Positions 1 to 19,579 of a stretch of 64,000 nucleotides of DNA are shown here, in pieces (positions within the stretch are counted from its first letter, which is position 1; each line of letters starts with the position of its first letter). The stretch lies in NCBI RefSeq assembly GCF_024171955.1, contig NZ_JAMTCS010000005.1, forward strand, positions 248,001 through 312,000, read 5' to 3'. The notes under the pieces are model-generated. The model saw only the letters and a list, made by a program, of their open reading frames with translations, was not told the DNA's origin and searched no databases. Both the position numbers and the translations under genes were made by a program. Source of the stretch: Promicromonospora thailandica (GTDB lineage Bacteria; Actinomycetota; Actinomycetes; Actinomycetales; Cellulomonadaceae).

Positions 1-1062
1 ATCCTTCAGGAGCCGTTCTATGGCTACCGCATGACGGCTCGTGTCCACGTTGATGTGAGATGCCCACTCGGCAGGTTGGTAGCGGGCGAGCATCGACAGG
101 GCATAGAGGACCGTCCACCAAGCCATCAGCGGATGAAGGCTGCGACTGTCGTCCGGTGCGACCGATGGAAAGAACTGCATAGACCCTATGTAGCGTCGCG
201 TCAGCGACTCGAGAAGCGCAGCCCTTTCCGCGACTGTGCCTGCGTGACCGCCAGGCAGTTGCCAATGCATCACGAGCTCGCCCCAGCCGTCATTATGGCG
301 ACTGAAGTCGGGAGCTGCGGCCGGCTCCCGGTCAACGCGTACGAAACTGTGGTAGCCCTGCGCCGCTGGGAACGCTTTGAGGTAGTTGTCCAAGGCCTGG
401 CGCCCATTGTCAGCGTCCATGACCCACGAGGGAAAGCCAACGACAGGCACGGACGCCAAAGGATGGTTTTCGGGGTACAGATTGCGGTATTCGATCCACA
501 AGGGCGTCCGCCGTGAGGCGTCCTCGCCGAGGAGCGGAGAGTGCTGATTCTCGGGTAGGAGGTCCCAGAGCACATTGAGGGGGATCGACGCCTTACCCCA
601 GACGGGGGAGTCAAGGAGTTCCGACAGTCGGACGTAACTACCGCTTCCGCCAGGTTTGCCGGTCTCGATCCTGACGTCAGAGAGCCCGCCAGCGAGCTCT
701 TTCGCGCTTATGCCGTGGCTACTCAGCTTCCAACCATCCCCAGGCCCGATGCTGGACGAAGCGGCAGTGATCGCACGCCCGGCCTGGCTGAGTCCATAGA
801 AGACGAGGAGTGGCTGTGTAGCTGGACCAACCGTCGCCGCCGCGCGGAACATCTGCTCGGCTTGCTCCAGGGCGAAGACGTATGTCGCCCGCCGCTCGTC
901 GACTACGACAGCCGGAGCTGGTGGGTTCCACCTCGTGGCTCGTAGTTGCTCCCAGACGCCATCGGTGTTGTTGTCGGCGTGCACATGCTGACCATGTGCT
1001 CGTTCAGGTGCGCTGTCAATCACGCTCCGGGCTCGATCCCCAATGTGGTCGGTAAGGTCCAT
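1..1062 (-). CDS. YaaC-like protein, 3' end cut off by the window
   Basis: An open frame runs from ATG at 1062 to the left edge without a stop (354 codons seen). An in-frame TGA lies six bases before this ATG, so the start is well fixed. I read the frame in several blocks; it holds F-Y-G-L-S-Q-A-G-R-A near residue 75 and P-L-W-I-E-Y-R-N-L-Y-P-E-N-H near residue 185. This layout resembles the YaaC family, first known from Bacillus subtilis and of unknown function. The gene begins 60 bases after the stop of the Ntn-hydrolase-like gene on the same strand, so the two are probably one transcript. No catalytic motif is obvious. The family call rests on remembered motifs. Confidence 0.75.
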   Translation of the reverse strand, partial: MDLTDHIGDRARSVIDSAPERAHGQHVHADNNTDGVWEQLRATRWNPPAPAVVVDERRATYVFALEQAEQMFRAAATVGPATQPLLVFYGLSQAGRAITAASSSIGPGDGWKLSSHGISAKELAGGLSDVRIETGKPGGSGSYVRLSELLDSPVWGKASIPLNVLWDLLPENQHSPLLGEDASRRTPLWIEYRNLYPENHPLASVPVVGFPSWVMDADNGRQALDNYLKAFPAAQGYHSFVRVDREPAAAPDFSRHNDGWGELVMHWQLPGGHAGTVAERAALLESLTRRYIGSMQFFPSVAPDDSRSLHPLMAWWTVLYALSMLARYQPAEWASHINVDTSRHAVAIERLLKD

Positions 1063-1122
1063 CTGTCAATGGCCGTGTTGGACCCCTGGCTCACGGGGAC
1101 TGGCCGCCAAGAGTCCGGCTCT

Positions 1123-1977
1123 CTAGAAGTTCCAGCCCTGCGGCTTGGGCCCATACACGACCTCTTGTCCGTGATCTTCAAGGGCGATCCGCACGAACTC
1201 GTCGGGCGTCGATGCGGGGACTGTAACCGACTCGTATGGATGTTCGTGGCGGAACAACCGTCCCGCGTTGGCGAGCGGATGGAGTAGTCCGATTGCGCCG
1301 CGGGTTCGTCCCCGGCCAGCGAAGACGATCAGTTCGGACACTGTGGGGTCTCCACCAGGTGGCACCTCCAGTGTGAGCTTGAGGTTGCCGTGCTCGAACC
1401 GTGCGCTCGTCACCTGCATCTCCGGCATCAGCGCCATGCGGTCGGGAGGAAACAGAAACCCCTCCGTTGGGGTACCCGACGCACGAATCGTGTATCCGCC
1501 CACGGTCGATACGGAGTCGAACGATGTCAGTCCTTGCTCCGATGACATGAGCAAGAACGGAACCTCTTGGCCCTCGCCCCACTGGTGGTACTTCTCCTGA
1601 AACTCACTGTAGGCGTCCCCGTCCCCACACCAGGCTCGTATACCGCCCGTGCGGGGCTCGACGTTCCCGTCCCGGACCATCCACAGCCGCGCCGGGTCCA
1701 GTGCAGCGATGACGAACTCCGCATGACGTTCGAGCCGGAGGCGCTCGAGCATCTCGTCGACGGTGACGTCGCGGACCTCGGTCAATAGACGGATGGTCCC
1801 GTGTGGATCGTTCCCGGCAACCCCGACGGCGAGGTCCGCACGAAGGATGACGATCTTGGCCAGGGCGTTTTCGTAGGTGTGTCTTGTCTTGGTCACGTCG
1901 CCGGCCCATGTGATCTTCGTGTCGGAAACCATCGTGATCCGGTCTCCGTCGTGGATGTCCGCGACTACAAGGGTCAT
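1123..1977 (-). CDS. HslV/proteasome-like Ntn-hydrolase fold protein
   Basis: With ATG at 1977 the protein has 284 residues and starts Met-Thr, so Met removal would expose an N-terminal Thr as in proteasome beta subunits and HslV. The first 65 residues follow the HslV order: a hydrophobic strand, V-S-D-T-K-I-T near residue 20 (where HslV has its G-D segment), A-L-A-K near residue 40 (the place of the catalytic Lys) and V-G-V-A-G-N near residue 52. The C-terminal half is unassigned. An upstream TTG at 1986 is also in frame, but it overlaps a TAGGGT -10 box, so the ATG is preferred. The YaaC-like gene follows in the same direction. The fold is inferred from motif order; peptidase activity is not shown, and no ATPase partner is visible. 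Confidence 0.6.
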   Translation of the reverse strand: MTLVVADIHDGDRITMVSDTKITWAGDVTKTRHTYENALAKIVILRADLAVGVAGNDPHGTIRLLTEVRDVTVDEMLERLRLERHAEFVIAALDPARLWMVRDGNVEPRTGGIRAWCGDGDAYSEFQEKYHQWGEGQEVPFLLMSSEQGLTSFDSVSTVGGYTIRASGTPTEGFLFPPDRMALMPEMQVTSARFEHGNLKLTLEVPPGGDPTVSELIVFAGRGRTRGAIGLLHPLANAGRLFRHEHPYESVTVPASTPDEFVRIALEDHGQEVVYGPKPQGWNF

Positions 1978-1985
1978 GCCTACCA

Positions 1986-1991
1986 ACCCTA
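1986..1991 (-). promoter_or_regulatory. -10 box TAGGGT for the Ntn-hydrolase/YaaC operon
   Basis: TAGGGT read on the minus strand lies 8 bases before ATG 1977. This places the transcription start at or within a base or two of the start codon, as in leaderless actinobacterial genes. Confidence 0.45.
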
Positions 1992-2089
1992 CTCGCGGCC
2001 TCCCTCGGCGACACGTGAGGGGCCAACAGTCCGACCCCCCGGGTGCCTCACTAAAGGCAGCGACCTATACTTCAATCTCCAATATTGTT

Positions 2090-2692
2090 ATGCTAGAAAC
2101 TGTTATGCTCCCCGTCACTCTAAGCACATTCGAGGCAACGTCAAGCTCCAAGCACCTCCCGAAACTCACGCCGTCTAAACTGAAGGCCATCGAAGAGTCT
2201 TGCGTCCTTGCGGTTAACGAGAAGGTCCAAATCCTGCTCCTCTTCTTGTATAAGAAGTGGATTGCCGAGGTTGCCATCGGCTTAGAACGCAAGGATGAAA
2301 GCACGCGCCTCTTAGACCAGCTCGGACTGCCTTGGTATATCGAAAGTTACCAAGGCCCATACGTTGAGCGTTGGGTTCAGGTCGGTGCCAACCAAGCTGT
2401 CCTCGATTACGTCCACGCGCGTCGTGGAGAACTGAGCGACTTAGAATCGGGCATCCTCTATGGATTTCCACCTACACATGTTCTCGGCTACGTGGGAATT
2501 ATCTCGAAGAAGCCAACGGCACCGAACAGTGTAGCCCTCTATATGTTGGCAGGCACGTACTCGAAGAACTTCCAGGATGCTGAAGTTAAGTATTTCAATG
2601 AAATCTGGTGGGAAGTCGAAAAGGTGAGCCCAGTAATCGCGGGGCAGGCGCAACAAGAATATGAGAGCCTGTATCGCCAAACTTCCGAGTAA
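2090..2692 (+). CDS. Unrecognised protein, low-GC gene
   Basis: About 200 residues from ATG 2090 (a second ATG at 2105 is possible). The longer open frame from 1877 is ignored because its first part is antisense to the Ntn-hydrolase gene. The sequence has K-L-T-P-S-K-L-K-A-I-E-E, an I-L-L-L-F-L-Y-K-K-W segment, and Y-G-F-P-P-T-H-V-L-G-Y-V in the middle. It looks like a soluble mixed helix/strand protein with no signal peptide. GC is close to 50 percent, far below the rest of the window, which suggests transfer from a different host. TATACT at 2066-2071 is a possible -10. The gene ends just before a strong hairpin at 2705-2741. I do not recognise the family. Confidence 0.6.
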   Translation: MLETVMLPVTLSTFEATSSSKHLPKLTPSKLKAIEESCVLAVNEKVQILLLFLYKKWIAEVAIGLERKDESTRLLDQLGLPWYIESYQGPYVERWVQVGANQAVLDYVHARRGELSDLESGILYGFPPTHVLGYVGIISKKPTAPNSVALYMLAGTYSKNFQDAEVKYFNEIWWEVEKVSPVIAGQAQQEYESLYRQTSE

Positions 2693-2704
2693 CTGAAGCT
2701 GCGG

Positions 2705-2741
2705 GCTCCGGCAAGCATCAGCGTTGAATGCCTGCCGGAGC
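2705..2741. terminator. Bidirectional hairpin between two convergent genes
   Basis: Arms GCTCCGGCA/TGCCGGAGC, extended by GCAT/ATGC with one bulged base on each side, close a 9-base loop. It sits between the stop at 2692 and the stop at 2753 of the opposing Cys-rich peptide gene, so it can end both transcripts. Confidence 0.7.
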
Positions 2742-2752
2742 TTGGCGACAAG

Positions 2753-2959
2753 CTAGTCGTGGTACCTGCACCCGTAAGTCGGGTTGTTGCAGTGAGCGTT
2801 TGGGTTGTTTGAGCTGCACCGAACACAGCGGCAGGTACACGTACCCATCCGCGGCGTCGAGATGATGGTGCGCAGCGGAGAAAAGGCCTTCAGTTCGATG
2901 CGCTTGTTCGGCGTGACGTCCGTCGGGACTGCCGCCAGGGCTGCTGTCATTGAAACCAC
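2753..2959 (-). CDS. Cys-rich small peptide, homologue of the 9304-9438 peptide
   Basis: 68 residues from GTG 2959; ATG at 2950 is an alternative and a much shorter start at the internal ATG before the Cys block is conceivable. The C-terminal third holds C-T-C-R-C-V-R-C, then A-H-C-N-N-P-T-Y-G-C. The peptide encoded at 9304-9438 has C-Y-C-N-C-D-T-C, then R-H-C-R-N-P-E-N-N-C. Both also have L-x-T-I exactly 12 residues before the first Cys. The shared pattern L-x-T-I-x8-C-x-C-x-C-x2-C-x(4-7)-H-C-x-N-P-x3-C makes chance unlikely. A hairpin lies 12 bases past the stop, which supports a real transcript end. The coding strand is that of the regulator and cupin genes. It could be a ribosomally made modified peptide precursor or a small metal-binding protein. 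No Shine-Dalgarno is obvious. Confidence 0.6.
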   Translation of the reverse strand: MVSMTAALAAVPTDVTPNKRIELKAFSPLRTIISTPRMGTCTCRCVRCSSNNPNAHCNNPTYGCRYHD

Positions 2960-3307
2960 ATCCAGTTCTTGCGTAGTCGCTACACGATGCAGAAGGTGCG
3001 TTCGCTTGGGCGAACGAGACTAGAGGCAGCTTCCGGTCTAGCGAGTACAGCCGTGTCCACGCACAGGCGGCTGACGATCGTGGGCGGAGGAACGGGACTC
3101 CGCTTCCTTAAATCTACAGTTCGCACCCGACGCGAATCCGGTGAATTCACCCTTGATGATGAAATATCACCCACTACGTTGACGGACTCCCCATGGCTGA
3201 TCGAGCAGGTGGTGGTCGGGAAATGGCAGCTGGCGGTCGGCTCGGCGGCACTGGGCATGCCCGGTGTGAGCCCTGCCATGCCTTGTTGGGAGTGGATTAG
3301 CCCTCAG
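2960..3307. other. Gene-free stretch, probable promoter of the Cys-rich peptide
   Basis: Open frames on both strands here (2969-3364 plus, 2980-3279 minus) have no recognisable domain and look like chance frames. The stretch is relatively AT-rich around 3145-3190. It could hold the promoter and leader for the minus-strand peptide gene. I see no hairpin that clearly ends the cupin transcript. Confidence 0.35.
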
Positions 3308-3664
3308 TCAAGCGGAAGGCCACCGAACGGTGACGACCACCGAGTCGGCTTCCGCCTGCCATGAGTGGTCGATGCCTGGACCCCAGACGACGTAGTCGCC
3401 CTGTCGCTCAAGTAGGGTGCTGCCGACGGTCAGGTCGAGCCGGAAGCGGCCGCTCACGAGCAGAAGCATCGTGGTGCGCCGATCGTCAGTGGTCCACTCG
3501 GGTCGTTGCTGACCCTCGGGGTGGACGCCCCACTTCACCTCGAGAGCGTCGGTGTTCCGCACCGCCGCCCCGGGGGTCTCGGGGGCGATGAAGTGACCCA
3601 GGAGCCAGCCGCGGTGCTGGTCCGCGTCGTCGGTGGCGTTGCCGCTGTACCAGGTGTCTGACAT
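3308..3664 (-). CDS. Cupin-like protein coupled to the XRE regulator
   Basis: 118 residues from ATG 3664, which overlaps the TGA of the upstream regulator as TGATG; an in-frame ATG at 3676 is also possible. The C-terminal half reads like the second half of a single cupin barrel: L-L-L-V-S-G-R-F-R-L-D-L, then G-D-Y-V-V-W-G-P-G-I-D-H-S-W, ending V-V-V-T-V-R-W. The G-x5-P-x-G-x2-H-x-W element is the usual second cupin motif. The overlap implies matched expression with the regulator, so it may bind a small ligand or help that regulator. An enzymatic role cannot be excluded. Confidence 0.65.
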   Translation of the reverse strand: MSDTWYSGNATDDADQHRGWLLGHFIAPETPGAAVRNTDALEVKWGVHPEGQQRPEWTTDDRRTTMLLLVSGRFRLDLTVGSTLLERQGDYVVWGPGIDHSWQAEADSVVVTVRWPSA

Positions 3665-5331
3665 CACGTTTCCCATTCGACGGGCGGCAGATCGACGCGC
3701 TCAGGTCCGATCTCGGTGAGGCGGCGGAAGCCCTGGAGTAGAGCAAACAGACCCTCGGTGCTCCATGCCGGTTCGTGCGCGAGTGTATCCAGCAGGAAGC
3801 GGTCTCGGCTGGAGTAGCGGCGCAGGTTGTTGGATTCCCAGTTGGCTTCGATCTGGCCTCCGAAACGGGTCCACCACTCCTCGTCGTCGATGACGACAAG
3901 GCTGGCGAACTCATAGTTGCCGGTCAGGAGGTTGTAGCCGAACCCGGTGCACTCCATGCGCCAGGTCCGCTCATCGGCACGTTCCATCAGCCACGCCATC
4001 GGCTCAGAAAGGCGGCTGAAGTGCATCGGGTCGGCCTGCCGGGACTCGGAGACCGTGGAGTCGACGTCAGCCCGCCCGAAGAGCTCTTCTTCCATCTCTC
4101 GCGCAAGTGTTGCCCCGATCGGCGCATCATCAGCGACGTCGACCAGTGGGCCGTGGAATCCCTTGGGTATCACGGAGAGTCGTCGGCTGCCGTTGAGTAC
4201 CTGGTTGGAACGTTCTTGGATCAGCAGCAGGTAGTCGCCATCGTGGCGCCAGGTCTTCGGTCGAGCGATCGCAGTTAGCGCGAGAGCACCGCCGGCGCAT
4301 AGCCGTGTGCCGACGTCGAGGACGGCTGACAGGTCGGGTAGGTAGCGGTCGCGCAGCGGAAGGTCACCCGGCAGCGGTCGCGGGTTGGTGGCGATGGCAT
4401 CCACCAGTTCGTTCTCAAGCAGGTCCAGTGTGAGGGCGTAATGGATGAAGTCCGCCTGGGCGAGACGGCCTTTCATCCCTGCTCGGCTGATCTTGAGGTC
4501 GATGAGACGGTACAGATCCCGGTTCACCATCGTTGTTCCGAAGCGCTCGACTTCCGCGGCTCGTCTCAGCGCCGCGTCACGGCCGGTGTCGTCAAGTGAC
4601 GGTCGGGCAACCGGTGCAGCATCGAGGCGGAGGCCGTCTACCTCCTTGCCGATCGGTAGAGCTAGGTCGAGCCAGTCTGGTCGGGTCAGGACGCTCGTGG
4701 ACAGTGTGCCGAGCTCTGTGCGCGCCGTGTATGGCCGCCAGCCGTCACGAAACTCGTAATAGCTCGCCAGAGCGGCGACGATCTCCCGCCGACCGACATC
4801 GGCACGAACGACTTGCGGCAGGACCTGCGGCCTAAGGTCTCCACCTTGCGACAGTGCCTCGACTCTTCGCTTCGCCTCCCCTGGGGCGAGTCCGGCAGCG
4901 TCGTCGATCCATCTGAGTGCTGCGTGCATCCCGGGCGAGATCGGGCGATTGCCCGCTGTGCTCGGCTGGCGCGGGTCTGACACCTCGACACCCGGCGCGA
5001 CCTTGCCTATCAGGATGGCGGGCTTGGCTTCGACGGCATTAGCGTGGTCCTGGCCCGACTCGACGCTCCGTGTGGTGTGCTCCAGACTTCGGCTGGGCGT
5101 CGGCTCGACGGTGAGAAGGTCAGCCAAATCGGCCAGGGTGACCTGGAGTGCCTCGGCCAGCATCGGGCGTGCCCACAGGGCCGGTGCGACCTCGCCCCGT
5201 TCCCAGCGCGCCACGGTTGTCCGGTCGATCTGGAGCTGTGCCGCCAAGGCCTCCTGGGACAGCCCGACCAGCTTTCGGCGCGCGACGAGCAGATCGCGTC
5301 GTCCCGGTGCTGGTGTTCGTCTGGTTCCCAA
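3664..5331 (-). CDS. XRE-family regulator with NUDIX-like C-terminal domain
   Basis: 555 residues from TTG 5331, with GGGGGAG as ribosome site directly before it. Residues 15-70 form an XRE helix-turn-helix (L-S-Q-E-A-L-A-A-Q-L, then R-T-T-V-A-R-W-E-R-G-E-V). The long middle part has no motif I can name. Near residue 415 there is A-R-E-M-E-E-E-L-F-G, close to the R-E-x2-E-E core of a Nudix box. Flanking strands fit a NUDIX-like fold but the full box is not conserved, so hydrolysis is uncertain and ligand sensing is more likely. The gene diverges from the lasso precursor across 223 bases and is translationally coupled to the cupin gene, so it is the best candidate regulator of the lasso operon. 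Confidence 0.7.
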   Translation of the reverse strand: MGTRRTPAPGRRDLLVARRKLVGLSQEALAAQLQIDRTTVARWERGEVAPALWARPMLAEALQVTLADLADLLTVEPTPSRSLEHTTRSVESGQDHANAVEAKPAILIGKVAPGVEVSDPRQPSTAGNRPISPGMHAALRWIDDAAGLAPGEAKRRVEALSQGGDLRPQVLPQVVRADVGRREIVAALASYYEFRDGWRPYTARTELGTLSTSVLTRPDWLDLALPIGKEVDGLRLDAAPVARPSLDDTGRDAALRRAAEVERFGTTMVNRDLYRLIDLKISRAGMKGRLAQADFIHYALTLDLLENELVDAIATNPRPLPGDLPLRDRYLPDLSAVLDVGTRLCAGGALALTAIARPKTWRHDGDYLLLIQERSNQVLNGSRRLSVIPKGFHGPLVDVADDAPIGATLAREMEEELFGRADVDSTVSESRQADPMHFSRLSEPMAWLMERADERTWRMECTGFGYNLLTGNYEFASLVVIDDEEWWTRFGGQIEANWESNNLRRYSSRDRFLLDTLAHEPAWSTEGLFALLQGFRRLTEIGPERVDLPPVEWET

Positions 5332-5373
5332 TGCTCCCCCTGAGCCGCCCCGCGTTTGCCCAGGTCAGCGTCC

Positions 5374-5405
5374 TGGTGCCACAACCTTGCTACAACCCTG
5401 CACCA
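5374..5405. promoter_or_regulatory. Candidate operator: tandem ACAACCYTGC inside an inverted repeat
   Basis: Two direct copies, ACAACCTTGC (5381-5390) and ACAACCCTGC (5392-5401), are 11 bases apart, about one helical turn. They sit inside the arms TGGTGC (5374-5379) and GCACCA (5400-5405). The site lies between the XRE regulator and the lasso precursor, where an autoregulatory or cluster operator is expected. Confidence 0.4.
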
Positions 5406-5554
5406 AACGAGCCCTGGGCGCGATGAAGTACGCCAGGTTCGATGGTCCCCAGAGCGCCGCGGAGCAATCGGCCGCGTGTTCTGGGTGTCGGCATCCGGCG
5501 GCACTCTGCCATCCCTTCCGCAGGGTCCTGCGGAGGCAGACCAGGAGGACGCAG

Positions 5555-5671
5555 ATGCAGGAGACGGAAACCTACAGCACCCCCGTGGTGGCCGACCTCG
5601 GCTCGGTCGCTGAGGTCACGCTCGGCAAGTACGCCGAGGACTCGCAGGACGAGGGCCGCTACTTCGAGTGA
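5555..5671 (+). CDS. Lasso peptide precursor
   Basis: 38 residues from ATG 5555, preceded by AGGAGG at optimal distance. The leader has Y-S-T-P (the Y-x2-P motif bound by the RRE protein) and ends V-T-L, with the conserved Thr next to last before the cut. The predicted core is GKYAEDSQDEGRYFE. Gly1 would form the macrolactam with Asp9 (a nine-residue ring), which leaves only six residues for loop and tail, near the short end for lasso peptides. Asp6-Ser7 inside the ring is a possible target of the isoaspartyl methyltransferase homologue. The core is strongly acidic, with E5, D6, D9, E10 and E15. The precursor role is well supported by the next three genes; the ring size and modified Asp are inference. 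Confidence 0.9.
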   Translation: MQETETYSTPVVADLGSVAEVTLGKYAEDSQDEGRYFE

Positions 5672-5679
5672 TCCACCGG

Positions 5680-5709
5680 GCGGGGGCGGTCCCAGCACGC
5701 CGCCCCCGC
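5680..5709 (+). terminator. Hairpin between precursor and cyclase, probable attenuator
   Basis: Perfect 10-bp arms GCGGGGGCGG/CCGCCCCCGC close a 10-base loop just after the precursor stop. Such a site usually lets more precursor than enzyme transcript accumulate by partial termination or by protecting the 3' end. Confidence 0.6.
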
Positions 5710-5736
5710 TCCTGCACAGACGAGAGGGGCACTGTC

Positions 5737-7551
5737 ATGGTCTGGCTCGCTGGAGCATCGGCCGCGATTCCCGGGCCAGGAGAAGCACGACTGCTGTGGG
5801 GTGGAGAGCGGCCTGTCTGGGTTGTCGATGAGCCGGGCCGACCTGAGACGGTCGTGCGCATGCTGGAGGACGGGACGTCCCGCCTTGCCGTCATCGGTGA
5901 CGTCTGGCTGTCGGGCGGTGACCTGGCCCGTGGGCTGGCGCACGTCCGGCGCAGCGACTGGCACGAGCTGACGCGCTGGCCAGGCTCGTACTGGGTGGTG
6001 GCGGACACCGGGACGAGCACGGTGGTTCTGACCGACCTGTGTGGGCAGCGCCCGGTCTACCACGCGCGTTTGGATGACATCGTCCTCTGGGCCACGCAGG
6101 CCAAGCCGCTCGCGCACGCTACGAAGGCCGCCGTCGACCAGGCCGGGATGGTGCGTCGGCTGGTGGTCCCCGCGCTCGGCGATCTGGTCGGTGCGCAGAC
6201 TACGTTCGCCGGCGTTCACCGCGTACCCGGTGGCCACGCCTTGACGTTGACTGCACGCTCGCGCCACGTCGATCCTTACGAGCCGGAGTCCCCGCCGATG
6301 ACGTTCACGGAGTCCGCCGTGCGGCTGCGGGACGCCTTAGCCACCGCTGTCGAGGCGCGCGCCACCAGTCCCGCCGAGACCATCACCGCCGACTTCTCGG
6401 GCGGGCTGGATTCGACCACGCTCGCTCTCCTGACGGCTCGGGCCGGGCGAGACGTGCTGGGCGTGACGCTCGCTGACCGGCTCAACCCGAACGACGATGT
6501 CTCGTACGCCGTTCTCGCTGCTACCGCCGAACCGCGACTGCGGCACGAGCTGGTAGCCCCTGAACCGCCGCCCACCTTCTTCAACGACTTGCTCAGCGCC
6601 CCGGTTACCGATCAGCCGCACTCGGATGCCGGGCGGTGGGCTCGCAAGTGGTCCTATCAGCGTCACGCCGTCGCGGCTGGCAGCACGCTCCACCTGACCG
6701 GGTCGGGCGGGGATCTGCTGCTTGCGACCCCCGCTACCTGCCTGGCGGACCTTGCGGCAGGTGGACACCACCTCACGTTGTGGCGGGCTGCCAGAGCGCG
6801 CGCCCGGCTCAGGCACCGGCCCGTCTACGACGTCGCCCAGAATGCCTACCAGTTGGCAGACACCTCCTATCCCGATGCGCTCCGCCAACTAGCAGCGGCC
6901 ATCCGGGTGGGCGGCCAGCGTGCACACGGGCGTCGGCCACTGCGCTGGCTGGCTCCAAGTGGTGTTGCCGCTTGGCTGACCCCCGATGCTCGGAACGGCC
7001 TGCTGACCACCATCTCTGACCTGGCGGCTGTCGCGCCGCGTGGCTACGGCTCGCTCAGCAGACGCCGAGCATGGGACGAGGTGCGCGAGTTCGGCACCTA
7101 CCAGGTCGAACTCAACACGCAGGCCGCCTCGCTCGGCCTACGGCTGCACGCCCCCTTCCTGGACAACGAAGTTGTCCGGGCGTGCATGGCGCTGCCGCCC
7201 TACCTCCATAACCATCCGCACCGCCAGAAGCCGCTCCTGGCTGCCGCTCTGCGCGGTCTGGTGCCGAACAGCCTGCTCGACCGCCGCACCAAGGGCGTCT
7301 ACGGCGCGGCCGGCTATGTGGGCATCGCCCGAAACATCGAGGTCATCCGGGGCTTGCTCGATGCGTCCGAGCTGGTCGCTACCGGCCTGCTCGACGCCGA
7401 TGCGGTGGCGCACGATCTCGAGCTCGCTGCCGCTGGCATCCCGACCCGCTTCGCGGCCCTGGAGTCGGTCATCACGACCGAACTGTGGCTCAGCCAGTAC
7501 CGCGCCGAGACCAGCGTCACGCCATGGGAGGTGACTGCTCATGCGCACTGA
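5737..7551 (+). CDS. Lasso cyclase, asparagine-synthetase-like
   Basis: 604 residues from ATG 5737, which has GAGAGG upstream; the longer frame from 5668 would run through the attenuator. The N-terminal half resembles the glutaminase-like domain of asparagine synthetase B but lacks a Cys nucleophile at position 2, as usual for lasso cyclases. The synthetase domain has the ATP pyrophosphatase loop D-F-S-G-G-L-D-S-T near residue 220 and further motifs such as L-H-A-P-F-L-D-N-E-V near residue 470. The enzyme would adenylate the ring-forming Asp side chain and join it to Gly1. The gene follows the precursor and overlaps the RRE gene. Confidence 0.92.
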   Translation: MVWLAGASAAIPGPGEARLLWGGERPVWVVDEPGRPETVVRMLEDGTSRLAVIGDVWLSGGDLARGLAHVRRSDWHELTRWPGSYWVVADTGTSTVVLTDLCGQRPVYHARLDDIVLWATQAKPLAHATKAAVDQAGMVRRLVVPALGDLVGAQTTFAGVHRVPGGHALTLTARSRHVDPYEPESPPMTFTESAVRLRDALATAVEARATSPAETITADFSGGLDSTTLALLTARAGRDVLGVTLADRLNPNDDVSYAVLAATAEPRLRHELVAPEPPPTFFNDLLSAPVTDQPHSDAGRWARKWSYQRHAVAAGSTLHLTGSGGDLLLATPATCLADLAAGGHHLTLWRAARARARLRHRPVYDVAQNAYQLADTSYPDALRQLAAAIRVGGQRAHGRRPLRWLAPSGVAAWLTPDARNGLLTTISDLAAVAPRGYGSLSRRRAWDEVREFGTYQVELNTQAASLGLRLHAPFLDNEVVRACMALPPYLHNHPHRQKPLLAAALRGLVPNSLLDRRTKGVYGAAGYVGIARNIEVIRGLLDASELVATGLLDADAVAHDLELAAAGIPTRFAALESVITTELWLSQYRAETSVTPWEVTAHAH

Positions 7552-7849
7552 GCCGTTGATATTCCTCAGGCCGCCGCGCTACGTGCGTGCCACGATCACC
7601 CGACAGGGCGGCATGGTGCTCGACCTGCGCGGGCGGGGACGCTGGCACGCCCTGAGCCCGGTCGCCGCGGTGTGGTGGCAGTGCCTGGCAACAGGCATGA
7701 GCGTCACCGCAACTGCCGAGCGCGTCGCCGCGCGGTATGGGGTCAGCCGGGAGCTGGCACAGCGCGACGGTGATGCGCTCGTCCGCGACCTCCACGGGCG
7801 CGGCCTGCTGCGACCACCCCGTCGCTCACGAAAGGACCGTGCGCTATGA
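7541..7849 (+). CDS. Lasso B1 protein, PqqD-like RiPP recognition element
   Basis: 102 residues; ATG 7541 overlaps the cyclase end by 11 bases. The small fold, with strands R-A-T-I-T-R-Q-G-G-M-V-L-D-L then W-H-A-L-S-P-V-A-A-V-W-W-Q-C-L, is the PqqD-like peptide-binding winged helix of split lasso B proteins. It would bind the Y-x2-P leader and deliver the precursor to B2 and the cyclase. Its place between cyclase and protease is the standard order. Confidence 0.9.
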   Translation: MRTEPLIFLRPPRYVRATITRQGGMVLDLRGRGRWHALSPVAAVWWQCLATGMSVTATAERVAARYGVSRELAQRDGDALVRDLHGRGLLRPPRRSRKDRAL

Positions 7850-8265
7850 GCATCGCCATGGCGACCCAGGTCGCACCGCCCCGCCCGGCACTCGGCCAGG
7901 CCGCGATGGCCGCCACCAGTCTGCTCGTGGCCGTGGGCATGCTGCGACTGCTGCCGCTGCGTGTCGTCCTCGCACTGGCAGGAGTCGTCCGGCAGGTAGC
8001 GCCCCGACATGCTTCGCTGGACACCGCCCGGGAGGTCATCACGGCCCGGGACTGGGCAGCCGCGCACTACCCAGGCCGAGCGACCTGCCTCGACCTCTCG
8101 CTCACTGCCTTCCTGATCGCTGCCTGCCGAGGACGCCACGTCAGCTGGTGCATCGGCTGCCGTTTCAACCCGAGCGAGTCGCACGCCTGGATCGAAGTCG
8201 ACGGCGAGCCAGTGGGTGAGTACGGCATGTTCGACGACCCGTTCCACGTGACCATCCGCCTGTGA
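7846..8265 (+). CDS. Lasso B2 leader peptidase, transglutaminase-like
   Basis: 139 residues from ATG 7846, overlapping the B1 stop by four bases. The catalytic set is visible: Cys in A-T-C-L-D-L-S-L near residue 86, His in E-S-H-A-W-I-E-V near residue 111, and an acidic residue after it in V-D-G-E. The N-terminal 50 residues are hydrophobic or helical, as in other B2 proteins. It removes the leader after the T-x pair, so that Gly1 is free for ring closure. Confidence 0.9.
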   Translation: MSIAMATQVAPPRPALGQAAMAATSLLVAVGMLRLLPLRVVLALAGVVRQVAPRHASLDTAREVITARDWAAAHYPGRATCLDLSLTAFLIAACRGRHVSWCIGCRFNPSESHAWIEVDGEPVGEYGMFDDPFHVTIRL

Positions 8266-8296
8266 TCCATCAGCTCCACGAAAGGAACCAACCCGA

Positions 8297-9295
8297 ATGA
8301 GCCCCAGCACGACCGACGCCGTGGACGCCGCTGCTCGCGCCATCCCCGCCGAGCTGTACCACGGGAAGGACGGCAAAGCGGTGCGCCCCTGCACCCCGGC
8401 GCCTGTCACGCTGCGCCACTTGCGGATGCTTGACGTACGACCAGGGATGCGTGTGCTGGAGATCGGCACCGGGTCGGGCTATTCGGCAGCACTCCTGTCC
8501 CACCTCGTCGGGCCGACGGGTGCCGTGGTCACAGTGGACATCTCGGCTGACCTCTCCGAGCGGGCGCGTGGCCTCTTCGCCGAACACGGGCATCGCGTAG
8601 AGGCCGTCCACGGCGATGGCCTGCACGGCTGGCGGGAAGGCGCACCGTTCGACCGCATCTTCGTCGGCACCACGCCGCCCCAGATCCCCACCGCCTGGCT
8701 CGACCAGCTCGCCCCTGGCGGTGAACTGATTGCCGGCTGCCTGCTGTCGTCGCTCCCCGGCGCCTATGCCGTCGCCCAGATCAGGAACACCACCCACGGT
8801 GAACCCGATGTCTTCGTTCACGCCGGCGGCTACACGCCAACCATCGGGGACGAGAAGCCACAGGCAGCTACCTACGTGACTGCTGACGATGACGACCGGT
8901 TCGACCTCGCGACCAACGCCGCGATCACCGAGGACGCCGCCCGCGAACTCCTGGCCGCCCTGCGCGTCGGCCGAGCCACCACCTGGACGACCGAGCCGGA
9001 CGACTACCTGCACCTCAAGAACTGGCTCATCGCCCGAGACCCCGAAGGGCTGCTCGTCGCCACCACCGAACTCGGGACGGGCATCGGGCTCGGGTCTCTT
9101 GGCGGCGAGCCGGACGCTGCCTTCGTGACGGGAGCACACCTGGTGACCCGTCCGGCCGACTCGGCCGTGGGTACCAAGCTGCACGACCTCATCACGGCAT
9201 GGCGCCTGGTCGGCTCGCCCGCCACCCACGAGCTCCCAGCGCGACTCGTCCGCTCGGAGAACGGCTACACCGTCACCGTCCAGCCACTTATTTAG
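8297..9295 (+). CDS. Protein-isoaspartate methyltransferase homologue of the lasso cluster
   Basis: 332 residues from ATG 8297 with AAAGGA upstream. The N-terminal 210 residues form a PCMT-type domain: motif I is V-L-E-I-G-T-G-S-G-Y-S-A near residue 54, then V-T-V-D-I and G-D-G-L-H-G-W. The roughly 120 extra C-terminal residues are absent from housekeeping PCMT but are typical of members linked to modified peptides. In known lasso systems (lihuanodin and cellulonodin-2 types) such enzymes methylate an Asp of the threaded peptide, which then cyclises to aspartimide. By analogy this one would act on the core encoded at 5555, most likely at Asp6. It belongs to the same operon, 31 bases after B2. 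Confidence 0.85.
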   Translation: MSPSTTDAVDAAARAIPAELYHGKDGKAVRPCTPAPVTLRHLRMLDVRPGMRVLEIGTGSGYSAALLSHLVGPTGAVVTVDISADLSERARGLFAEHGHRVEAVHGDGLHGWREGAPFDRIFVGTTPPQIPTAWLDQLAPGGELIAGCLLSSLPGAYAVAQIRNTTHGEPDVFVHAGGYTPTIGDEKPQAATYVTADDDDRFDLATNAAITEDAARELLAALRVGRATTWTTEPDDYLHLKNWLIARDPEGLLVATTELGTGIGLGSLGGEPDAAFVTGAHLVTRPADSAVGTKLHDLITAWRLVGSPATHELPARLVRSENGYTVTVQPLI

Positions 9296-9303
9296 GAGTC
9301 GTC

Positions 9304-9438
9304 ATGACACTCGTCAACGTGCTCGCCAGGCTCGGCACCATCCGGACCCGCACGACGCGCTTCCGCTGCTACTGCAACTGCGACACGTGCAAGGTCGGCC
9401 GTCACTGTCGGAATCCGGAGAACAACTGCGACTTCTGA
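9304..9438 (+). CDS. Cys-rich 44-residue peptide in the lasso operon
   Basis: ATG 9304 lies eight bases after the methyltransferase stop, with AGGAG just before it, so it is almost surely translated as the last gene of the lasso operon. A basic 20-residue N-terminal part (L-G-T-I-R-T-R-T-T-R) is followed by C-Y-C-N-C-D-T-C, then R-H-C-R-N-P-E-N-N-C-D-F. It shares the full Cys/His pattern with the peptide at 2753-2959. Six Cys plus one His in 23 residues could bind zinc or an Fe-S cluster, or be modified. It is not a second lasso precursor: no Y-x2-P and no Gly-to-acid core. Its role with the lasso enzymes is unknown. Confidence 0.8.
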   Translation: MTLVNVLARLGTIRTRTTRFRCYCNCDTCKVGRHCRNPENNCDF

Positions 9439-9464
9439 GTCAACGCTCCGATCGCCCCTCAAGG

Positions 9465-9496
9465 CAGTGGCGCCCACGCTTCGGCGGGCGCCACTG
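9465..9496 (+). terminator. Rho-independent terminator of the lasso operon
   Basis: Perfect 11-bp arms CAGTGGCGCCC/GGGCGCCACTG close a 10-base loop and are followed by TTTGCATTT. It lies 26 bases after the last peptide stop. Confidence 0.85.
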
Positions 9497-9979
9497 TTTG
9501 CATTTCTGGCGAACGACCCACTGCCATCGGAGCTCCGGTTCGGACTGGTGTTGCTCCGGCAGGTGGGATTGCGTCGGCTCACTAGAGATCGTCGGATAGG
9601 ACTCACGAAAGGAACGCAGATACGAAACCGGGCGGCTGCCCCGGCCGGACCCAGCGCACGCAACGGCACGCGATAGCGAAACGCTCCCAAGCCACGCGTC
9701 GGCCGAAACCGTCGGGCCGGGTTACCCACCGTGTAAATGATCGAGGCCAACTCTCGGAAGCACGCGCTTCAGCCTCGAATCGCCCCATTAGCTGGAGTAA
9801 TCTGCAGCCGGTCCCGACAACGTGCCGGCGCTCAATGCGTTGGTCGGCAGTCTGGGACGCCTTCAGTCACGGCCACAGGCACGGATGCCGGGTAGGTGGG
9901 TCGATCGATCCTGCGGCGCGCAGCGAGGTGCACCTCCGACAGGAGAACTCCACGGCATGCTGATAGTACGGCCTCCGTC
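9497..9979. other. Gene-free stretch after the lasso cluster
   Basis: Nothing coding is convincing on either strand; short open frames have no motif or ribosome site. The only clear signal is the -10 box at its right end for the next gene. Confidence 0.4.
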
Positions 9980-9985
9980 TAGCCT
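9980..9985 (+). promoter_or_regulatory. -10 box TAGCCT, leaderless GTG at 9992
   Basis: TAGCCT is followed by six bases and then GTG, so transcription would start at the start codon. There is no Shine-Dalgarno. Confidence 0.5.
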
Positions 9986-9991
9986 GGCACC

Positions 9992-10552
9992 GTGGAGGCT
10001 TATGAGCAGTTCGTCGCGCTGGCGCTCGAGGCAGAAGGGCTCGTGGTCTCCAGCGCACTGAAGTTCCCTGTAGCCAGGCAGACCCCGAGCGGCCTGCAGA
10101 CGCACGGCTACGAAGTGGATCTCATTGGAGCACGTGCAGACAAGCTTGTTCTTGCAACCGTGAAGTCCTTCTTCGGGTCGATCGGTGTCATGGCCGACCA
10201 CGTCAGCGGAGCGGGCGCAAACAAGACGCACACGAGCAGGTACAAGCTACTCAATGATGCTCCGCTTCGGAGCAAAGTCGTCACGTTGGCTGCAGAACGG
10301 TTTGGCTACGCCGTCAGCCAGGTCGAGTTGCGCCTGTATGTCGGAAAATTTGGCCCCAAAGATAACGAGGAACGGACCCGCGCTTGGTGCAAGAGTCAGG
10401 TCGTCGGTGCAGGCCCGATCAAGGTCCTTGGTGCGCCCGAAGTTGTCAAAGTAGTGCGCCACCTGGCGCGACCTAAGCAGTACCGCGATAGTGCTGTCCT
10501 CGCCACAATCAAGGTTCTCAACGCTGCAGGAGCTCTCGTAGAAGGCCCCTAG
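9992..10552 (+). CDS. Conserved hypothetical protein, possible restriction-like nuclease core
   Basis: 186 residues from GTG 9992. Residues 35-60 read T-H-G-Y-E-V-D-L-I-G, then L-V-L-A-T-V-K-S-F-F-G. This strand-turn-strand with an acidic pair followed by x-V-K recalls the D...(D/E)xK core of restriction-like nucleases, but the second acidic residue is replaced by Thr, so catalysis is doubtful. Q-V-V-G-A-G-P-I-K-V appears later. I recall similar proteins in many actinomycetes, with no known role. It is a single gene with its own leaderless promoter and sits next to a restriction-modification locus, so a defence link is plausible but unproven. Confidence 0.6.
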   Translation: MEAYEQFVALALEAEGLVVSSALKFPVARQTPSGLQTHGYEVDLIGARADKLVLATVKSFFGSIGVMADHVSGAGANKTHTSRYKLLNDAPLRSKVVTLAAERFGYAVSQVELRLYVGKFGPKDNEERTRAWCKSQVVGAGPIKVLGAPEVVKVVRHLARPKQYRDSAVLATIKVLNAAGALVEGP

Positions 10553-10909
10553 AAATCCCTAAAGCAGCTGGACCGGATCGCTAATTCGTCACATTTCGCC
10601 CGCACGGAGCCAAGGCCGCCTCTCTCCTTTGGGGATGAATACAGCGTGCGCGGCCTAATGATCCGACAATTGGCGACACGCGGCAACTTTCACGGCGCCC
10701 TTGGGCCGCCAGAGGTACCGTTACGTGGTAAGTTCCCCAGCGCAGTACCCATCGATCCCGGCAATCATGCAGGCCACGGGGCCCTTGGGTTGGGGCGCCC
10801 GTCCGGTTGGCGTGGGTCTCGACTTGCCTGGGCACCGTCTCTCGATGTTGTTGGTAGCCATCGCTGACGTGCGAAGGTCAAGTACCAAGAGTTGTGAGGA
10901 ACGAACTTC
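10553..10909. other. Gene-free stretch before the methyltransferases
   Basis: Short overlapping frames here show no domain. GTGAGGAA at 10893-10900 is the ribosome site of the next gene. No strong hairpin was seen. Confidence 0.4.
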
Positions 10910-12451
10910 GTGGATTACATCTTCAAGACGATCTACTTCCCCCGCGACCGCGTTCGCAGCGGTCAAGCAACGCGGGTAACCGTGAGCCTGCCGACGGTTG
11001 ATGGGCCAGCGGATCCGCCTGGGTTTGTCGATTACTTGGCCAGCTTGGGCAGTGCTGAGCTACGTGAGGCGCTCGGTGATCGCACGCTTGAAGATCTTGA
11101 ACAGATGGCTGCGCGCGAGGATCGCAGCTTCAGCAATGAGTGCGTACGACTCATTCGTGAATCGTTCGTCGCAGACACGCGGGGCAACGAACCGCGGACC
11201 GGCGCCATCACGCAAGCGTCAGTACCGTTCGGCGACGCCGCGCCCGGGGTGACATTCAAGGAGAGCAAGCGTCTCCCGATATTCGGCTGGTACCCGTACG
11301 TCGAGGGTTTCTCTGCGCCGTACGTCCACGAAGTGGTCAAGCGATATGGAGCTGGTCGCTCAATCTATGACCCGTTCGGCGGCTCCGGAACGACACAGCT
11401 CGCGGCATCTGTAGCCGGCATTCCCAGCTGGTACAGCGAAGTCAATCCGTTCATGCGATTTGTTGCAGACACAAAGATCGAGGCATCGAGAGCTGCGCGC
11501 AGCAACTTGGAGCGCACCGATGCCCGGCTCACTGAGTTCCAGACTCGGCTTACGACCGAGCTTCCGCAATGGGCATCGAAGGTGGACCTAGCGGGCTACC
11601 ACGAGGCGTTCCCAGGGCGAGACTTCTTCGTGGAGGGTCATATTCGCGAGCTGCTCGGTGCACTCGACCTGGCAAAGGAAGTGGCGGCGGAGGACGAGGC
11701 AGTCAGTTCGCTCCTGCGGCTGGCGGTGGCGGCGAACGCCGTCCACGCATCCAACATGACCCGACGAGCCGACCTAAGGCGCCGACGCGCTGACGAGTAC
11801 AAGACCCGCGTCGTCGACGTGCCTGTCATGGTCGGATCATCGGTCGAGCGCATGCTCGCCGACTTGCACCAGCACTCGGTCAATGCCGCGCCGACTACGT
11901 TCGTCTCCGCTGACTGCCGCCAGGCTCCATCGCAGTTCGACGGCGCCTTTGAGCTCGCCATTACGTCGCCGCCGTACCTCAATGGAACTAACTACTTCCG
12001 CAATACAAAGATCGAACTCTGGATGCTCGGGTTTATCGCATCGGAACGCGAGCTGGCTAATTTCCGTGGCCAGGCTGTTGCGGCGGGGATCAACAACGTA
12101 AACAAGAAGCGTCGGGAGTATCGAGTGTTCCCGGATGTTGAGTCAGTCGCTGAGCAGCTCGACGAACAAGCTACTGACCAAAGAATCCCACTTCTTATCC
12201 GACAGTACTTCTCAGACATGGCCGAAGTTATGGAATCTGTTCATCGAGTCCTTGAGCCAGCCGGCAGGTTCGTGTTTGACATCGGCGACTCAAAGTTTTA
12301 CGGCGTACACGTACCAACGGATCATCTCTTGGAGTCGATTGCGGAGACGGCTGGATTTGCGGTCGAGTCCAGCACGGTGTTGGCGCGACGGTACTCGCGG
12401 GACAAGTCTCCCTTGGTGCAGCGCGAACTCGTCTTCCGGAAGGACGCATGA
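10910..12451 (+). CDS. DNA methyltransferase 1 (amino-methylating, N4-C or N6-A)
   Basis: 513 residues from GTG 10910, preceded by GAGGAA. Motif I, D-P-F-G-G-S-G-T-T, lies at residue 154 and motif IV, T-S-P-P-Y, at residue 352, with about 190 residues between them that may hold the target recognition part. T-S-P-P-Y favours N4-cytosine methylation, but N6-adenine is not excluded. The first 110 residues have an unassigned domain, including A-R-E-D-R-S-F-S-N-E-C-V-R, which looks like a ribbon-helix-helix segment. The stop overlaps the start of methyltransferase 2 (ATGA). With the convergent HNH endonuclease it makes a plausible type II-like restriction-modification system. Confidence 0.85.
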   Translation: MDYIFKTIYFPRDRVRSGQATRVTVSLPTVDGPADPPGFVDYLASLGSAELREALGDRTLEDLEQMAAREDRSFSNECVRLIRESFVADTRGNEPRTGAITQASVPFGDAAPGVTFKESKRLPIFGWYPYVEGFSAPYVHEVVKRYGAGRSIYDPFGGSGTTQLAASVAGIPSWYSEVNPFMRFVADTKIEASRAARSNLERTDARLTEFQTRLTTELPQWASKVDLAGYHEAFPGRDFFVEGHIRELLGALDLAKEVAAEDEAVSSLLRLAVAANAVHASNMTRRADLRRRRADEYKTRVVDVPVMVGSSVERMLADLHQHSVNAAPTTFVSADCRQAPSQFDGAFELAITSPPYLNGTNYFRNTKIELWMLGFIASERELANFRGQAVAAGINNVNKKRREYRVFPDVESVAEQLDEQATDQRIPLLIRQYFSDMAEVMESVHRVLEPAGRFVFDIGDSKFYGVHVPTDHLLESIAETAGFAVESSTVLARRYSRDKSPLVQRELVFRKDA

Positions 12452-13611
12452 CGGTGACGCTCGATCAGCTCGATGACCGCCAATTGGCCAAGCAGATCTC
12501 GGCATTCGGCGCGGAGATGCCCTACCGCAAGGCTCCCTATAACAGCAGGGCGTGGGGAAATTCGCTGCACTCACTCTGCTCATACCAGGGCAAGCTCAAA
12601 CCCTCGATCGCCTACTGGCTTGTATCAACTTTTACTCAGCCAGGCGACCTCATTATGGACCCGCTCGCCGGTGTCGGCACCATTCCATTCGAGGCGGCGC
12701 TTCTCGGTCGACGGAGCATTGCGAATGACCTGAGCCCGCTTGCGGCGACGGTCTCTAAGGCGAAGGTCGCGCCACCGACCTTAAGCGAGGCTCTCGCGGC
12801 CGTCGATGGGCTTGCTGATGCAATGTCCGAGGTAAGACTATCGAAGTCCGACCAGGATGCGGCCGACTTTGGTCTGAACGCCACAGTGCGGGACTATTAC
12901 CACCCGGACACGCTTGACGAGGTTCTTAAGGCACGACGAGTCTTCCTCGAAGGGAAGTTGACAGCTGTCGGCGCCGATTTCGTATGGGCATCGCTCCTGC
13001 ATGTCTTGCACGGCAACCGCCCGTACGCTCTCTCTCGGACCTCACATCCGATCACTCCCTTTAGTCCGAAGGGTCCGTTCGAATACCGAGGTGTTATTGA
13101 TCGAACGAGAACTCGGATCGAACGCGCGCTGGCCACACCTTTGCCGGCAGAGTTTGTTCCTGGCCGCGGTATCCACGGGGATTTCAGACAACTCCCTTCG
13201 GCCGTCGACGACCTCGCTCAGGTTGACGCAATCATCACGTCTCCGCCGTTCTTGGGCATGAGGTTCGACCGTCCGAACTGGCTGCGTCTATGGTTCTGTG
13301 GATGGACTGCTGAGGATTTCCACGTCAGGTCGCTCGGCTTCCTGGAGCGTCAGCAGACCAAGTCCTTCGATTACTACAAGGATTTCTATGACGTCTCTGC
13401 CAAGCTGTTGCGTCCGGACGGCCTGCTTGTGATCCACGTTGGTTCAGGCACGAAGGATCGTCTCGTTGACGGCCTCCGGGATCTCGGCACCTCGCAGTTT
13501 CGGCTCGTGGGCGAGACTGTCGAGGACGTCGCGGCGTTGGAGCGCCACGGCCTCACTGACAAAGGCTCGCGCACGACGAGCCACCATCTGCTGTTCTTCA
13601 GGCGCGACTGA
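12448..13611 (+). CDS. DNA methyltransferase 2
   Basis: 387 residues; ATG 12448 overlaps the preceding stop by four bases. It has D-P-L-A-G-V-G-T at residue 71 and T-S-P-P-F at residue 264, the same order as methyltransferase 1, but the two proteins otherwise differ. Two coupled methyltransferases facing one nuclease usually protect the two strands of an asymmetric site. H-S-L-C-S-Y-Q-G-K-L-K-P near residue 42 matches a segment often seen before motif I in this class. No specificity can be read from the sequence. Confidence 0.85.
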   Translation: MTVTLDQLDDRQLAKQISAFGAEMPYRKAPYNSRAWGNSLHSLCSYQGKLKPSIAYWLVSTFTQPGDLIMDPLAGVGTIPFEAALLGRRSIANDLSPLAATVSKAKVAPPTLSEALAAVDGLADAMSEVRLSKSDQDAADFGLNATVRDYYHPDTLDEVLKARRVFLEGKLTAVGADFVWASLLHVLHGNRPYALSRTSHPITPFSPKGPFEYRGVIDRTRTRIERALATPLPAEFVPGRGIHGDFRQLPSAVDDLAQVDAIITSPPFLGMRFDRPNWLRLWFCGWTAEDFHVRSLGFLERQQTKSFDYYKDFYDVSAKLLRPDGLLVIHVGSGTKDRLVDGLRDLGTSQFRLVGETVEDVAALERHGLTDKGSRTTSHHLLFFRRD

Positions 13612-13624
13612 CAGCTCCCGATGT

Positions 13625-13655
13625 GGCCGCTAGAGTCCCTGGACACCTAGCGGCC
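13625..13655. terminator. Bidirectional hairpin between methyltransferase 2 and HNH endonuclease
   Basis: Arms GGCCGCTAG/CTAGCGGCC (9 bp) with a 13-base loop. It overlaps the last codons and stop of the HNH gene, whose stop TAG lies in the left arm. Confidence 0.6.
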
Positions 13656-15003: not shown

Positions 15004-15184
15004 TCTGGCAGCAAGTTAGCGGGTGATCCCGTTCGCCTCGTGCCTCTCCGCTACGCACATCGCGCACCAAGGACTGGTCGACGCTTGCTTCGTGCGGAGG
15101 GTCGACCCGCCGGCCCAATGCTCGGACAGGGAGCCTTGCTGCACCAGACACGTCGTTGACCGTGGGACGGCAGCATCTGTCAGC

Positions 15185-15841
15185 ATGGCCGGCATGCCGA
15201 GAGAGATGAGAGTTGCCGGGCGTGTCGTCGGGGATCCGTTCAAAGAACTCGCCGAGTACGGGCAGCGCTACTGGGACACAGTCGCCCGGTACGACCTGGC
15301 TGGCGCCGCTGATCCGGTGGCCCTAAGCGCTGCAGAAGTAGCACGGACGCGTGTCATCGGGAGTCGCATCTCCAACGCGCAGAGCAACTGGTTCGTGAGG
15401 AGGTCCATCACCGCACCATGGGACCTCGTACCACCGAGCGTGAGCCTCGCCGATGCCGATCCAGCCCTCGACGATGGCTTGTACACGGCGGCAAACGCGC
15501 TCTACGAGCACTTTCGGTCGGATGCGCCCACAGGGATCGCCAGGGCAAAGATCCATAAGGTTCTGCACCTCAAGCGTCCTGGCCTCATCCCGGTCCTTGA
15601 CTCGCATCTATTGCGTTCCTACGCCACGCCGGCGACTGAAGCGGCCCGGCGCTATCCGCAGCTTGGTGCTACTCGTTTGTACTGGGCCGCGATCCGAGAG
15701 GATCTGATCGATGAGACGAATGCGGCCGTACTTGGGCAAGTCCGCGGCGCGCTGGCCAGCCACGACGAGCCCCGGGTTCAGGCAGTATCACGCCTCACGG
15801 ACCTTCGGTTGCTCGATGTTGTTGCTTGGCGAACTGCCTAG
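15185..15841 (+). CDS. DUF6308-like protein
   Basis: About 218 residues from ATG 15185 (ATG 15194 also possible); the longer frame from 15023 runs through the promoter region of the divergent HNH gene. It has the run K-I-H-K-V-L-H-L-K-R-P-G-L-I-P-V-L-D-S, which I associate with the DUF6308 family of unknown function. It looks soluble and alpha-helical. It follows the restriction-modification genes but has its own direction and likely its own promoter. The family call rests on memory of that motif. Confidence 0.6.
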   Translation: MAGMPREMRVAGRVVGDPFKELAEYGQRYWDTVARYDLAGAADPVALSAAEVARTRVIGSRISNAQSNWFVRRSITAPWDLVPPSVSLADADPALDDGLYTAANALYEHFRSDAPTGIARAKIHKVLHLKRPGLIPVLDSHLLRSYATPATEAARRYPQLGATRLYWAAIREDLIDETNAAVLGQVRGALASHDEPRVQAVSRLTDLRLLDVVAWRTA

Positions 15842-15927
15842 CTGCGGTCGTGACGACCACCACGCATCCATCGGTGACGAGATCCCGTCCCGCAACGATC
15901 GTCCGAACGTCCTGGCTCTCGCCCTGG

Positions 15928-16878: not shown

Positions 16879-16884
16879 TCGGTA

Positions 16885-16890
16885 ATCCTA
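16885..16890 (-). promoter_or_regulatory. -10 box TAGGAT, leaderless TIR gene
   Basis: TAGGAT on the minus strand is followed by six bases and then ATG 16878, the expected leaderless spacing. Confidence 0.55.
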
Positions 16891-17244: not shown

Positions 17245-17250
17245 TAGCGT
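17245..17250 (+). promoter_or_regulatory. -10 box TAGCGT, leaderless AAA_13 gene
   Basis: TAGCGT is followed by CAGACC and then ATG 17257, the same six-base spacing as for the TIR gene. Confidence 0.5.
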
Positions 17251-17256
17251 CAGACC

Positions 17257-19545: not shown

Positions 19546-19579
19546 CTGTGTCCGCATCATTGGGACGATCCATGCCGCT

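Follow-up and report, generated by a model that had tools for sequence, protein, structure and literature searches.

Prokaryotic metallothioneins of the SmtA type (Pfam PF02069) act beside SmtB, and a copper metallothionein of mycobacteria, MymT, is small and Cys-rich. Small Cys peptides of a different kind are the type II pamtides (cysimiditides), which are described, in the available parts of the two reports, as carrying CxxCxGxG-D-CxxCxGxG with a conserved Asp (PMC10787088, PMC13001092). The lassimiditides (cellulonodin-2, lihuanodin) have the core motif DTAD, some with Ser at position 7, and a PIMT homologue with WxxxGxP, according to the accessible text of the source (PMC13001092).

The window considered here, the whole stretch of 64,000 nucleotides of Promicromonospora thailandica that was analysed (contig NZ_JAMTCS010000005.1, forward strand, positions 248,001 to 312,000), encodes two small Cys/His peptides in and beside a lasso peptide cluster. 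We put a probability of about 0.6 on the reading that both belong to an undescribed family, most likely folding around one or two soft metal ions, and we infer a new metallothionein-like family. The features to which the argument refers are:

2705-2741, hairpin between the minus-strand peptide and a convergent plus-strand frame (by eye)
2753-2959, minus strand, 68-aa Cys/His peptide frame (P0001); alternative starts ATG 2950 and ATG 2848 (31 aa)
3267-9496, block conserved in genome G097 (3267-4999 at 95%, 5045-9496 at 90%)
3308-3676, minus strand, small protein weakly similar to cupins (PF07883 at E 0.017, short of the cut-off)
3664-5331, minus strand, helix-turn-helix regulator, divergent from the lasso operon (PF01381 4.8e-9)
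5555-5671, plus strand, lasso precursor with the predicted core GKYAEDSQDEGRYFE (D6-S7-x-D9), scoring 26 bits for the NF033521 lasso leader (cut-off 19)
5668-7551, plus strand, lasso macrolactam cyclase (NF033561 340 bits, cut-off 300)
7541-7849, plus strand, PqqD-like leader-binding protein, B1 (PF05402 1.6e-10)
7846-8265, plus strand, lasso B2 protein (NF033537 75 bits, cut-off 33)
8297-9295, plus strand, PIMT-type O-methyltransferase (PF01135 2.8e-32), with WxxxGxP in its C-terminal part
9304-9438, plus strand, Cys/His peptide of 44 aa (P0002), the final gene in the lasso operon, starting 8 nt past the methyltransferase stop
9465-9496, plus strand, terminator-like hairpin 3' of the plus-strand peptide (by eye)

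The genes at 5555-9295 agree with the lassimiditides in both of the features by which these are described in the available text: the core reads D6-S7-x-D9, within D6-[T/S]7-x-D9, and the PIMT homologue has its WxxxGxP, as WRLVGSP, at residue 302 of 332 (PMC13001092). On the strength of this match they are probably a new lassimiditide (aspartimide lasso) cluster, for which an aspartimide is predicted; the cluster differs in adding a Cys/His peptide gene after the methyltransferase and a divergent regulator-cupin pair. The frames of the lasso block include none recognised as a transporter gene, and no metal gene was seen in the window's cluster. G097 is the only other genome in which we found the lasso cluster, and a comparison of window positions 1-20000 with 19.9 kb of G097 (L046) gave 3267-9496 as the sole match in the compared stretches, so that the flanks differ between the two genomes. 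The lasso precursor protein is identical in G097, and the true start of the cyclase is probably ATG 5737, where the G097 frame starts. The regulator and cupin-like genes (3308-5331) are also adjacent in G117 (L201), at 73% and 88% protein identity; since a tblastn search with the lasso proteins found no match in 15 kb of that locus, the pair seems to be a separate module. A pair of neighbouring DNA methylase-like genes lies to the right of the lasso block, at 10910-13611; they match PF01555 and the PADLOC models for type II methyltransferases, the latter with a best E of 3.6e-141.

Both peptides had been picked out in a sequence-only reading of this DNA, and both frames are present, at 2753-2959 and 9304-9438. 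That reading had made the plus-strand peptide the last gene of the lasso operon with a good ribosome site, which agrees with a start 8 nt downstream of the methyltransferase stop codon (TAGGAGTCGTCATG) and with the ribosome site as judged by eye; it had also correctly placed the minus-strand peptide next to a hairpin (2705-2741) and on the strand of the regulator (3664-5331) and the weak cupin (3308-3676). The motif it gave the two peptides in common stands in part. The Cys/His block, C-x-C-x-C-x2-C-x(4 or 7)-H-C-x-N-P-x3-C, occurs in full twice in the window and not once in 200 simulated windows of the same dinucleotide frequencies, but L-x-T-I, ahead of the block, is no better than in shuffled sequences: with the peptides held in Cys register, 21% of 20,000 shuffles reach the N-terminal score and 28% reach 3 identities, and L-x-T-I as extra homology was accordingly rejected. 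The spacing, said to be identical from Leu to the fourth Cys, is indeed equal that far; the gap to His-Cys that follows is 7 residues in one peptide and 4 in the other. BLASTP of one window peptide against the other reaches E = 0.013 only. Because the N-terminal likeness lies within the shuffle range, the Cys/His block is the sole evidence that the two are related.

The plus-strand peptide has a homologue in G097 that is 93% identical and occupies the same place after the methyltransferase. Between the two genomes its pN/pS is 0.118 (44 codons; 8.5 synonymous and 3.5 nonsynonymous changes), to be compared with 0.13 for the methyltransferase, 0.27 for B2 and 0.26 for the PqqD-like protein; every Cys is retained, including two whose codons are swapped between TGC and TGT. 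The comparison shows a gene under purifying selection that, in both genomes, is translated together with the lasso methyltransferase. The AlphaFold2 model is weak overall (mean pLDDT 67, pTM 0.37; five models 52-67; N-terminal half 49), with moderate confidence in the Cys half (mean pLDDT 76-85), and a Foldseek search with the fold model found no relative in the PDB.

That such peptides lie at both edges of the lasso cluster is true of this genome only, since the conserved block in G097 has the plus-strand peptide alone. The minus-strand frame sits outside that block (3267-9496) and has no match in G097 at E 0.1; the DNA around it (1100-3266) has none in 12 other genomes of the genus. Across 200 genomes of the host family no close homologue appeared, the best other match (E 7e-4, 37% identity) having an internal stop, and by eye no clear Shine-Dalgarno sequence precedes either GTG 2959 or ATG 2950. 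The frame could thus be a decayed or silent copy, leaving the plus-strand peptide as the only working gene of the two, as its position outside the block, the indistinct ribosome site and the lack of close homologues would have it; we consider this possible but doubtful, as the frame is open, has a GC3 of 0.77 and carries the complete Cys/His block. Decay here would be compatible with the metal-peptide reading, and the minus-strand peptide is a family relative outside the lasso block, whether expressed or not. The GC content is 52% at 2001-2700 as against 68% in the lasso block, which suggests recently acquired DNA beside this peptide.

Relatives of the lasso methyltransferase, aligned over most of its length, allowed us to sample six further loci (L188-L193). 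Cyclase-like and B2-like frames stand next to a WxxxGxP methyltransferase in L188, L189, L191 and L192, with a D-[T/S]-x-D precursor in L188, L189 and L192; for L190 the methyltransferase alone is shown, and for L193 a B2-like frame alone. The Cys block is present in the frames of none of the six (0/6), the flagged frames in L188 and L190 being without it, and among the 29 loci kept from the search for methyltransferase relatives, whose context is mostly unknown, the only Cys/His block is the window's own. In L188, from genome G604, the core GRYAEDSMDQERYFE is much like that of the window and the precursor is 50% identical, and there is no Cys/His peptide. Six other methyltransferase loci without the peptide, one of them with a very similar lasso core, mark it as an accessory and not as a standard part of such clusters. 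G117 (L202, 7065-8057) and G077 (L203, 6718-7674) also encode PIMT homologues, which share 48% identity with the lasso methyltransferase and have no tblastn match to the other lasso proteins near them.

A single-sequence search match, L050, led to the mycobacterial members of the family; the other single-sequence matches in family and class genomes, apart from the window's own and G097, were judged to be chance. A scan of a genome collection (84,980 species, as described by the tool) with a DNA pattern of the block then gave 72 loci; the pattern needs an AAC codon before CC and so misses members with AAT or without Asn-Pro. The full block is in frame in 53 of them, comprising 51 from Mycobacteriaceae, one from Nocardioides and one from a doubtful MAG. 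For the remaining 19 the full block is not in frame, and partly in-frame loci from Planctomycetota, Tyzzerella, Enterobacter, Prochlorococcus and Nitrospira were judged to be chance, as were 11 pattern loci in viral contigs; L092, an actinobacterial MAG locus with a longer gap, is a doubtful member. Three viral loci (L177, L179, L182) have in common one AT-rich frame with the full block and no Met in the part printed, L185 being looser. In plasmids and phages the minus-strand peptide found matches at E 1 or worse only, and a mycobacterial member found none. Recombinase-like and transposase-like frames lie close to the Nocardioides member, and one mycobacterial member is flanked by a DNA methyltransferase-like and a Ppx-like gene (L097, L111; by eye).

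As the pattern demands Cys, His, Asn and Pro, the fixity of these residues in the 51 loci is partly by construction, and the same limit applies to the alignment of homologues that had been proposed as a check on the Cys/His set, in which six Cys and one His are invariant across 28 members. A profile search that demands none of these residues (394 class genomes, E 0.001) found members in 13 genomes besides the window's, all of one genus: six Cys and His-Cys are retained in 13/13, while Pro varies and Asn does so once (HCHNIGSGC, HCYDRANNC). Within 200 genomes of the host family (E 0.01) the profile found members in two, the window genome with two and G097 with one; the search profiles contain the window peptides, whose own scores are circular, and all three family-genome matches are also in the profile.

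NCBIfam gave no match for the 28 members at E 0.1, and Pfam at the same threshold gave only two isolated weak matches, one member each, to yeast metallothionein (E 0.058) and a CCCH zinc finger (E 0.049). PF02069 matched none of the 28 members at E 0.1, none of five members at E 10 and neither window peptide at E 1. Searches of openly licensed articles in PubMed Central, by subject and by exact peptide strings, found no description of the family, and the literature search found nothing relevant on a lasso peptide with a metallothionein. The sequence-only reading had proposed a new peptide family and had tied this to the same Cys spacing occurring in other genomes; with the block carried by 51 loci of Mycobacteriaceae and one of Nocardioides, and neither a Pfam nor an NCBIfam model for it, the proposal is upheld. 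On sequence criteria, these searches show that the two peptides belong to an uncatalogued actinobacterial family of tiny Cys/His peptides, mainly mycobacterial. As judged by such comparisons the family is absent from the libraries searched, and it resembles metallothioneins in kind, not in sequence.

Around the mycobacterial members a simple GC3 rule served to call gene frames, which single-linkage BLASTP clustering at E 1e-10 then sorted into groups; the neighbourhood set of 55 loci adds L046 and L055 from other searches, L055 looking the same as L127. At 17/51 loci the directly upstream, co-directional gene belongs to a single BLASTP cluster, and at 16/51 a divergent gene beyond it belongs to a second; one representative of each was scanned. 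The former is an ArsR/SmtB repressor (NF033788 87.6 bits, cut-off 55), with NmtR as its best PDB match (2lkp, E 2.2e-46) and, by eye, D-x-H-x10-H-x2-H; the latter, scoring above cut-off for TIGR01525 and TIGR01512, is a P-type ATPase for heavy metals. The arrangement is limited to related species and may therefore go back to a single inherited event. A CoA ligase-like gene (by eye) ends at most 400 nt upstream at 20/51 loci, the NmtR gene being present there in 0/20. Similar sequence upstream of the peptide (around ctattgtgaag and atatgttgatg; by eye) recurs in many species regardless of the NmtR gene, and thus may be the peptide's own promoter; the NmtR/ATPase intergenic sequence has no clear resemblance to it. 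Some of the loci also have nearby an Lgt-like gene (14/51) and, within 3 kb, a radical SAM gene that carries an HMPTM zinc ribbon (9/51), as noted for L100 and L112. A 234-aa neighbour (16/51) that looked ZIP-like by eye had no match in Pfam at E 0.01 or NCBIfam at E 1 and no useful one in the PDB, and was left unused as evidence. The suggestion that the peptide is a metal-binding helper is favoured, short of proof, by the Cys/His set and by the NmtR-like (17/51) and P-type ATPase (16/51) neighbours.

Other roles for the peptide draw on its place in the lasso operon. It might be a second substrate of the lasso PIMT homologue, folded around zinc and converted at the Asp of D27-T28, which lies in the Cys core between Cys3 and Cys4, to aspartimide or isoaspartate, much like the type II pamtides, Cys peptides which, in the available text, require zinc if their PIMT homologue is to modify them (PMC10787088, PMC13001092). 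Its gene directly follows, and is co-translated with, the PIMT homologue in two genomes, and D27-T28 is retained in G097. The locus resembles the described type II systems in encoding a small Cys peptide beside a PIMT homologue but has neither CxxCxGxG-D-CxxCxGxG, with no CxxCxGxG motif at all, nor a conserved Asp: 7/28 distinct cores, the minus-strand peptide included, are without Asp (one of the 28 being a doubtful viral frame). The methyltransferase, moreover, already has a fitting substrate in the lasso peptide, with D6-S7-x-D9 and WxxxGxP as in the lassimiditides of the accessible source (PMC13001092), and the related G604 cluster does without such a peptide. The PIMT gene stands beside the peptide gene in the window and G097, and at the mycobacterial loci the neighbour clusters that were examined included no recognisable one. 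We regard a second substrate as unlikely, and rate slightly lower still a hybrid cluster, in which one PIMT serving two substrates, the lasso peptide and a zinc-folded Cys/His peptide, would found a further class of metal-folded aspartimide peptides.

Less probable again is a second RiPP precursor, exported after an unlinked or shared enzyme has modified its cysteines: a small Cys-rich peptide within a RiPP operon invites the idea, but the mycobacterial neighbour clusters examined include no general modifying enzyme, the neighbours there looking like CoA ligase, Ppx and enolase (by eye), DUF4383, NmtR and the ATPase, with radical SAM genes at just 9/51 loci, and the lasso block shows no transporter frame. 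The sequence-only reading's alternative of a second modified product is unsupported as a general rule for lasso clusters, since most of the family is without adjacent lasso genes and the six loci of related methyltransferases are without the peptide. We give the lowest probability to a cysteine-responsive attenuator, a frame through which ribosomes would sense cysteine and which would yield no working peptide. Tiny Cys-rich ORFs of mycobacteria, which the family members also are, have been reported before cysA2, Rv0485 and nirA and proposed as attenuators in the part of the source available (PMC4633059); those lie upstream of the genes concerned, and an attenuator would have its Cys codons clustered, whereas here the cysteines are spaced and not in a run, His-Cys is retained in 13/13 profile matches, and the plus-strand gene closes its operon, ahead of a hairpin.

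For the family as a whole we return to metal binding. Soft metal ions (such as zinc, cobalt, nickel, cadmium or copper) would be held by C-x-C-x-C-x2-C, H-C and the last Cys, and the peptide would buffer or carry the metal. The members are small and Cys/His-rich and in one mycobacterial group stand beside an ArsR/SmtB-type sensor and a metal ATPase, where the peptide may work with the NmtR-type sensor and efflux ATPase as SmtA does beside SmtB; they differ from SmtA in that most are of 31-49 aa, with another order of Cys and no profile match. To MymT they are alike in description, as small mycobacterial Cys-rich peptides. In the lasso cluster the plus-strand peptide would serve as an accessory buffer for metal, produced each time the lasso peptide is. 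Being short and patterned, the peptide lends itself, in synthetic form, to direct tests of metal binding and of PIMT modification alike. If the family does bind metal, many mycobacteria would possess an uncatalogued metal-handling peptide, and a lasso cluster would have an unexpected accessory gene.
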